Notes under the pieces: model-generated
What the model was told of the DNA's origin: nothing
Seen by the model: the letters and a program-made list of their open reading frames with translations, nothing else
Databases searched by the model: none
Made by a program: the position numbers and the translations under genes
Shown here: one piece after another, positions 2,272 through 4,192 of the stretch
How positions within the stretch are numbered: position 1 is the first letter of the stretch
Layout: each line of letters begins with the position of its first letter
DNA from: Nocardioides aurantiacus
GTDB lineage: Bacteria > Actinomycetota > Actinomycetes > Propionibacteriales > Nocardioidaceae
Assembly (NCBI RefSeq): GCF_003752505.1
Contig: NZ_RKHO01000001.1
Location: 3,162,001 to 3,226,000 of the forward strand
Direction of reading: 5' to 3'
Length of the DNA stretch: 64,000 nucleotides

Positions 2272-2667
2272 CTAGAGCTCCAGCTCGTCGGCGAGCGCGC
2301 GCAGCAGCTTGGCCGTCGGCTTGGCGGTGCGGGCGTCGGGGTGGCGACCGTGGCGGTAGCCCTGCTCGACACCCTCGAGCAGCCCGATCAGGTCCTCCAC
2401 GATGGTGACCATCTCGTCGGGCTTGCGGCGCTGGGCGGCGCGGCGGTTCTGGCTCACCGAGGCCGGCGCCTCGAGGACGCGCACCTGGTGGGCCTGGTCG
2501 CCCTTGCGGCCCGAGAGCACGCCGAACTCGACGCGGGTGCCGGCCTTGAGGGTCTCGACCCCCGAGGGCAGGTTGGACGAGCGGACGTAGACGTCCTCGC
2601 CGTCCTCGCGCGAGAGGAAGCCGAAGCCCTTCTCGGCGTCGTACCACTTGACCTTTCCGGTGGGCAC
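2272..2667 (-). CDS. Cold-shock domain protein with C-terminal extension
   Basis: 131 residues; the first ~65 form a cold-shock (CspA-type) OB fold that binds single-stranded nucleic acid: [19 protein letters not shown], with RNP1 KGFGFLS and an RNP2 variant VYVRSS where most Csps have VFVHxS. The extra ~65 residues ([14 protein letters not shown]..., ending ALADELEL) are charged and probably helical, seen in the longer actinobacterial Csp proteins. GTG start, preceded by GAGAGGCC as a weak ribosome site. It is separated from both neighbours by about 40-95 bp, so probably monocistronic. Confidence 0.9.
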
Positions 2668-2761: not shown

Positions 2762-4192
2762 TCAGCGCCAGCGCTCGGGGTCCGGGAGCAGCGCGTTCAT
2801 CGAGCCGGACCGGAAGCCCAGCGGGTCGACCTCGACCGCGTCGAAGCCCGCGGCCCGCACCACGTCGAGGTGGTGGGCGGCCTCGTCGACCAGGTCGCGA
2901 TCGACCTCGACCCGGGCGGTCTCCCCCAGGTCGCGCACGCGCACGTCGCGCACCGCGTGCCCGGCCGTCTCGAGCGAGGCCCGCAGGTCGGCCTCCGCGC
3001 GCTCGACCCGAGCCAGCCGCGACGGGGTGATCTCGATGCCGTAGGCCACCCGCGAGGACAGGCAGGCCGCGGCCGGCTTGTCCCAGGTCGGCAGGCCCCA
3101 CGCCCGCGAGGCGGAGCGCACCTGCTCCTTGGTGATGCCGGCGTCCAGCAGCGGCGTCACCGCGCCGCGGTCGGCCGCGGCGGCGATGCCCGGGCGGAAC
3201 CCGGCGCGGGCGTCGTCGGCGTTGGTGCCGGTGGCCACGACGGCGTACCCCTCGGCGGCGGCCAGCGGGCCGAGCACCTCGAGCAGCTCGGACTTGCAGA
3301 AGGCGCAGCGGTCGCCGGCGTTGGCGCGGTAGCCCTCGCGGTCCATCTCGTGGGTCTGCGGCGTCAGCACCCGCACCCCCAGCGACTCGGCGAAGGTGCG
3401 GGCCGGGTCGCGCTCGGAGAGCGGCAGCGAGCTGCTGTACGCCGTCGCGGCGCCGACGCGGTCGGGCCCGAGCGCGCGCACGGCGGCCGCCAGCAGGAAC
3501 GCGCTGTCGGCTCCCCCGCTGAACGCCACCAGCACCCGCTCGTGGGCGCGCAGCGACGCCGCCAGGCGCTCGAGCCGGGCCTGCAGCACGAAGTCGTCGA
3601 GCCAGGCGGGGAACCCCGACAGGTCGTCGAGCACCACGTCGGTGCCGGCGGAGCGCAGCTGCTCGGCCGTGCAGCCGCCGGTGAGCACGGAGACGCTGGG
3701 CACGCCGGCCGCCTGCGCGCCCTCGACGTCGTGGACGTGGTCGCCGACGTAGAGGTGGGCGCCGTGGCGGCGCAGCACCTCGCCCTTGGCCCCGCCCCAC
3801 ACCTCGCCCTCGACCACGTCGACGTCGAGGCCGAGGTGCTCGACGTGCAGCCGGGCGTTGGGGGTGAACTTGCCGGTGACCAGCAGCGTGCGGCCGCCGT
3901 GGCGGCGTACGGCGGCCAGGGCCTCCGCCGCGCCCGCGGTCGCCGGGGTCGGGACGACCGCGGTGCCGGGGTAGATCTCGCGGAACCGCGCGATGGCGGC
4001 CGGCACCTCGTCGGCGGGCAGGTGCGGCCCCAGCAGCAGGTCGAGGGGCGGGCCGAGGTTGCCGGTCAGCTCCGCCACCGGGAGGTCCACGCCCAGCTCG
4101 GAGCCGAGCACCTCCAGCGTCGCCGCGAAGCCGGGGACGGTGTCGATCAGCGTCATGTCGAGGTCGAACCCGACCACCAGCTGCTCGTCCAC
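2762..4192 (-). CDS. HAD phosphatase fused to LarE-type sulfur transferase
   Basis: 476 residues. Residues 1-200 are a HAD-superfamily hydrolase: DLDMTLID (motif I), a VTGK segment (motif II region) and VGDHVHD (motif IV), like phosphoglycolate phosphatases. Residues 201-476 are a PP-loop ATPase of the LarE family: SGGADS at 225-230, RCAFCK at 296-300 and [11 protein letters not shown] with Cys377. LarE supplies sulfur to the nickel-pincer nucleotide cofactor; enzymes with three cysteines placed this way are reported to hold a [4Fe-4S] cluster, while the Lactobacillus type sacrifices one cysteine. No larB, larC or larA lies in this window. GTG start backed by TAGCCT 6 nt upstream. The exact substrate of either half is inferred. 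Confidence 0.85.

Follow-up and report, generated by a model that had tools for sequence, protein, structure and literature searches.

A HAD phosphatase fused to the only LarE of Nocardioides aurantiacus: two enzymes that probably share a gene rather than a substrate

Introduction

In the genome of the soil actinobacterium Nocardioides aurantiacus, a HAD phosphatase and a LarE-type sulfur transferase are encoded as one polypeptide, and the question raised by this locus is whether the two halves act on the same molecule or are joined for another reason. We approach it through the domains and motifs of the protein, the distribution of the gene and its parts among relatives, the synteny of the locus, a deletion observed in one relative, and the conservation of both halves.

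Results

The window, that is, the whole stretch of DNA that was analysed, comprises 64,000 nucleotides (C1:3162001-3226000) of a complete, one-contig genome of 4.06 Mb. The features needed here are listed in window coordinates.

2762..4192, minus strand: HAD-LarE fusion gene, 476 residues, GTG start; open for 476 codons, with Pfam and NCBIfam matches
3584..4192, minus strand: HAD phosphatase half, residues 1-203 (approximately), COG0546/Gph-like with an alpha-helical cap (Pfam, fold comparison)
4157..4165, minus strand: HAD motif I, DLD; the nucleophile is D10 and the acid/base D12, both kept in at least 95% of 92 HAD sequences and invariant in a 27-sequence subset
3869..3877, minus strand: HAD motifs II and III, TGK, with T106 and K108; K108 without exception, position 106 either Thr or Ser in 92/92
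3728..3742, minus strand: HAD motif IV, GDHVHD, with D151 and D155; invariant in 92
3548..3622, minus strand: predicted continuous helix linking the domains, residues 191-215 (AlphaFold2 model)
2762..3583, minus strand: LarE half, residues 204-476 (TIGR00268, 267 bits; fold of solved LarEs)
3503..3520, minus strand: PP-loop SGGADS, residues 225-230
3305..3307, minus strand: C296, first predicted cluster cysteine (CxxC), in 84/84 LarE sequences
3296..3298, minus strand: C299, second predicted cluster cysteine (CxxC), in 84/84 LarE sequences
3062..3064, minus strand: C377, third predicted cluster cysteine, in 84/84 LarE sequences
2272..2667, minus strand: cold-shock-domain gene, 131 residues, a synteny landmark that in most relatives lies downstream of whichever form is present (HAD, LarE or the fusion)

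Pfam HAD models match residues 7-192 (HAD_2, 41 bits against a cut-off of 23.8), and the NCBIfam LarE model TIGR00268 matches residues 207-466 (cut-off 150); the cysteines of the protein are C174, in the HAD half, and C296, C299 and C377, so that the preliminary description of a single protein holding both domains and the three-cysteine pattern is borne out. An AlphaFold2 model of the fusion (55 relatives; mean pLDDT 92, pTM 0.85) predicts that residues 191-215 form a single helix, which closes the HAD half and opens the LarE half. A frameshift or misassembly as the origin of the fusion is ruled out by its wide recurrence: a single open reading frame encodes both domains in 57 of 198 family genomes and in 35 genomes listed from other families of the class. 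The HAD-LarE fusion gives a known enzyme a new domain architecture; no description of it was found in the open-access papers searched.

The fusion is the sole LarE above cut-off in this genome, and neither a second LarE nor a hidden lar operon was found near the window. A profile search of the genome placed LarB at C1:14927-15550 (268 bits) and LarC, 29 bases from it, at C1:15580-16734 (414 bits); this pair (C1:14927-16734) lies 3.15 Mb from the fusion gene. There is one LarA-family racemase gene, at C1:3840626 (194 bits). The earlier remark that larB, larC and larA are missing near the fusion therefore holds for the 64-kb window, and the search for them elsewhere in the genome, which the preliminary description had recommended, recovered all three. 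Since the genome encodes LarB, LarC and a LarA-family protein but no other LarE, the fusion is the one candidate for the sulfur step of nickel-pincer-nucleotide (NPN) synthesis, and its LarE is the predicted NPN sulfur insertase of this genome. Reading by eye around the LarA-family gene (L009, 6976-8307, minus strand) revealed MoxR/VWA-like genes and a pair of genes similar to iron-containing alcohol dehydrogenases, of which one resembles an NDMA-type methanol dehydrogenase.

The LarE half has the fold of the solved enzymes, with Z 27.5 and an rmsd of 2.4 over 250 residues to the solved [4Fe-4S] LarE 8cnz_C (8cnz/8cp4), and Z 27.5 also to LarE of Lactobacillus plantarum (5udq series). In Thermotoga maritima LarE, the CxxC-C cysteines bind a [4Fe-4S] cluster on which the sulfur is carried, whereas the sacrificial L. 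plantarum enzyme uses a single Cys176, located one residue away from the third cysteine of the Thermotoga protein (PMC9283937). The fusion shares fold, PP-loop and substrate-binding residues with the L. plantarum enzyme, but differs from it in having a CxxC pair and a third cysteine offset by one residue from Cys176, as in Thermotoga LarE. The proposed P2CMN phosphate ligands of the L. plantarum enzyme, Ser180, Arg212 and Arg214 (PMC9283937), correspond to S380, R418 and R420, which are found in 84, 84 and 80 of 84 LarE sequences, respectively. The PP-loop (SGGxDS in the [4Fe-4S] LarEs), whose loss in relatives was to count against the earlier reading, is kept in 82-83 of the 84. From the CxxC-C pattern with the same one-residue shift and the retained phosphate ligands, it would follow by analogy that the LarE half operates like the Thermotoga enzyme. 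The two also resemble each other in that their genomes encode LarB and LarC partners; unlike Thermotoga LarE, the fusion carries an N-terminal HAD phosphatase, and its gene stands far from the other lar genes and before a cold-shock gene.

Among the 198 family genomes, many of which are fragmented assemblies, 57 have the fusion (two partial at contig ends, one frameshifted), 11 have LarE alone (including G446, which also has a separate HAD), 78 have HAD without LarE, and 52 have neither. The frameshifted case, G340 (L102), is broken near residue 138, where a frameshift or a sequencing error leaves a pair of overlapping frames. In G446, another member of the Nocardioidaceae (L098, L099), the standalone LarE adjoins LarC with LarA close by, and HAD stands alone beside the cold-shock gene. 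Fused and unfused LarE, whose distributions the preliminary description had suggested comparing, both follow LarC: it is present in 56 of the 57 fusion genomes, the exception being an assembly that is 82% complete, and in all 11 LarE-only genomes, which makes 67 of 68 LarE-bearing genomes in the family. Conversely, none of the 78 HAD-only genomes has LarC, and three family genomes have LarC without LarE. One genome counted as HAD-only, G470, holds a LarC-like remnant of 54 residues (G470:C22:49022-49186), which was left out of the LarC count and is consistent with a past loss of the pathway.

The same pattern is seen outside the family, where counts come from the matches listed (395 genomes of the class) and genomes are non-independent samples: the fusion occurs in 35 genomes, 31 of them with LarC, and a separate LarE in 40, 39 of them with LarC (LarC in 70 of the 75 LarE-bearing genomes), while HAD without LarE is accompanied by LarC in none of 47. 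At least six other actinobacterial families have the fusion, and coarser sampling across the phylum revealed no further one. Its carriers include Nocardioides, Marmoricola, Actinopolymorpha, Parafrankia soli and Streptomyces sp. SID3343; the closest named relative found is Marmoricola sp. Leaf446, with 95% identity across the fusion. One genome, G352 (L121, L122), has two different HAD-LarE fusions, each followed by a cold-shock gene.

In 26 family genomes with fusion and LarC, LarA was not detected by PF09861. The LarA_C model PF21113 recovered fewer genomes still, so that model sensitivity may account in part for the lack of LarA, which affects about half of the fusion genomes; either LarA is too divergent in these genomes, or the cofactor serves another enzyme.

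In most relatives, the counterpart of the cold-shock gene follows HAD, LarE or the fusion, and fused, split, HAD-only and LarE-only states are all seen at this one syntenic site. In three genomes (L154, L155, L158), HAD and LarE are encoded by two separate adjoining genes with 18-63 nt between them. The HAD tree requires 15 changes between fused and HAD-only states, at least four of them forced by well-supported branches, and the LarE tree requires 12 state changes, at least three of them forced; both are single-gene trees from short searches over 203-276 columns, with modest support. In the LarE tree, LarE-only genomes of another family (f86, L165) are nested among the fused ones.

One of these changes can be followed at the level of nucleotides. 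A Nocardioides genome, G476 (L071), has flanks 84% and 91% identical to those of the fused locus in G488 (L069), and about 839 bases, with LarE, are missing between them; the new tail of its HAD extends into the former 3' untranslated stretch. This points to a clean deletion of about 0.84 kb by which G476 lost LarE, the direction of the event being read from its position in the tree, inside the fused G488 and G475. The opposite loss is suggested by one case: the LarE-only protein of G346 (L096) starts with PEPVVGFDLGVTL, similar to HAD motif I, and might thus have lost HAD by an in-frame internal deletion of a fusion. The fusion is old and common among relatives, and either half is discarded freely.

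The HAD half matches the folds of 3mc1 (Z 23.9) and 2ah5 (Z 23.8). With the COG0546 Gph-like HADs (3mc1, PtkA 6f2x, phosphoglycolate phosphatase 2nyv, AlnB 4ex6 and the Bacteroides thetaiotaomicron pyrophosphatase, 3qu2 series) it shares motifs I-IV (DxDxT, T/S, K, GDxxxD) and the alpha-helical cap, with Z of 20-24 for those compared by structure, but identity is 14-26%, and none of them is joined to LarE. Assignment as a phosphoglycolate phosphatase was rejected, as TIGR01449 gave 51 bits, far under its cut-off of 180. A much closer relative is the standalone actinobacterial HAD beside the cold-shock gene, in the same family and in the Streptomyces-like f3: this orthologue is 45-72% identical, occupies the same locus in most cases, has all catalytic residues, and differs in having neither a LarE half nor LarC in its genome.

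Across the set of 92 sequences, which covers fused, split and HAD-only forms, the catalytic residues are common to fused and HAD-only proteins. HAD columns strongly specific to the fusion, which might betray a substrate related to the cofactor, were looked for, and none was found within the family; columns 25, 82 and 143 are the only ones that differ weakly between fused and HAD-only proteins, and none is catalytic. By a simple Nei-Gojobori estimate, dN/dS of HAD falls between 0.10 and 0.29, whether or not the pairs compared have LarE, and is about 0.1 for the HAD of G476 after the deletion.

Discussion

The preliminary description had proposed that HAD hydrolysis is coupled to sulfur insertion. 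This is weakened by the 125 listed genomes (78 in the family and 47 others) that keep a HAD with the same catalytic residues in the absence of LarE and LarC, and by the many genomes that keep LarE without HAD. Because HAD keeps its catalytic residues and remains subject to purifying selection in genomes that lack the pathway, and because LarE could be deleted cleanly in G476, such coupling is unlikely to be the main job of HAD; its persistence, unchanged as far as its sequence tells, in cells lacking LarE and LarC likewise makes a cofactor intermediate unlikely as its main substrate. Since either half is discarded freely in evolution, the two probably share a gene rather than act on the same molecule.

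A direct service of HAD to the cofactor pathway, such as hydrolysis of a by-product (pyrophosphate, AMP) or of a damaged or excess nucleotide intermediate near the LarE active site, would fit the single polypeptide with its modelled rigid helical joint, the recurrence of the fusion in 57 family genomes and 35 listed others, and the presence of a pyrophosphatase and the phosphatase AlnB among the solved HAD relatives; we nevertheless consider it unlikely, given the HADs in genomes without the pathway, the LarE proteins without HAD, some nested among fusions, and the continued purifying selection on HAD after LarE deletion. We give a similarly small chance to a second role of the fused HAD in the metabolism of the nickel-pincer cofactor, such as the removal of AMP or pyrophosphate, or the dephosphorylation of pyridinium nucleotides that are damaged or in excess; if true, this would add to the pathway an accessory step not described before. 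Nocardioides and Parafrankia are aerobic, and repeated retention of the fusion in such organisms might suggest that it is functionally neutral but ensures stoichiometric co-expression or stability, with HAD helping to express an oxygen-labile iron-sulfur LarE or to keep it soluble. We regard this as very improbable, as LarE stands alone in comparable aerobes such as Glycomyces and Nocardioides luteus, and the conserved catalytic residues argue that HAD is more than a carrier.

Marginally less probable still is that the LarE half is a LarE relative whose thiolation target is not the NPN precursor, in line with the earlier suggestion of another thiolation pathway. The gene is indeed unlinked to the other lar genes, and LarA is not detected by PF09861 in the 26 genomes with fusion and LarC. 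However, this is the only LarE in a genome that holds LarB, LarC and a LarA-family protein, the LarE half occurs almost exactly where LarC does across the 198 family genomes, and the P2CMN phosphate ligands are kept; moreover, LarBCE without LarA is already known from other bacteria and for about 15% of genomes (PMC11796402).

We therefore favor, as the likely account as a whole, that the protein combines the genome's only LarE with an independent HAD phosphatase, merged through gene adjacency. In this account, every step of catalysis, the cluster and a HAD substrate independent of the cofactor are what we infer, whereas domains, motifs, gene distribution, synteny, the deletion and conservation are observed. 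The C-terminal half would be the LarE of this cell, whose product P2TMN would be supplied with nickel by LarC; the nickel-pincer nucleotide so completed would pass to the LarA-family protein, whose gene lies elsewhere. The N-terminal half would be a catalytically active HAD phosphatase of the magnesium type, acting on a small phosphorylated compound of its own that has no relation to the cofactor. We propose that the HAD and LarE genes became one protein because they lay head to tail before the cold-shock gene, the joint between the halves being a shared, presumably rigid, helix, and that lineages abandoning the cofactor shed the LarE half. Against this account, retention of the fusion in most LarC-positive Nocardioidaceae and in several other families could reflect some benefit of linkage, and in LarE-only genomes another phosphatase could take the place of HAD.

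LarE of many actinobacteria is thus part of a HAD fusion, and the locus represents a natural experiment on domain fusion, with four states at one syntenic site and each half lost separately, depending on whether the nickel-pincer pathway is kept. This cautions against inferring function from fusion alone ("Rosetta stone" inference). At the same time, the locus offers a test of whether an oxygen-labile iron-sulfur LarE benefits from a phosphatase partner in aerobes.
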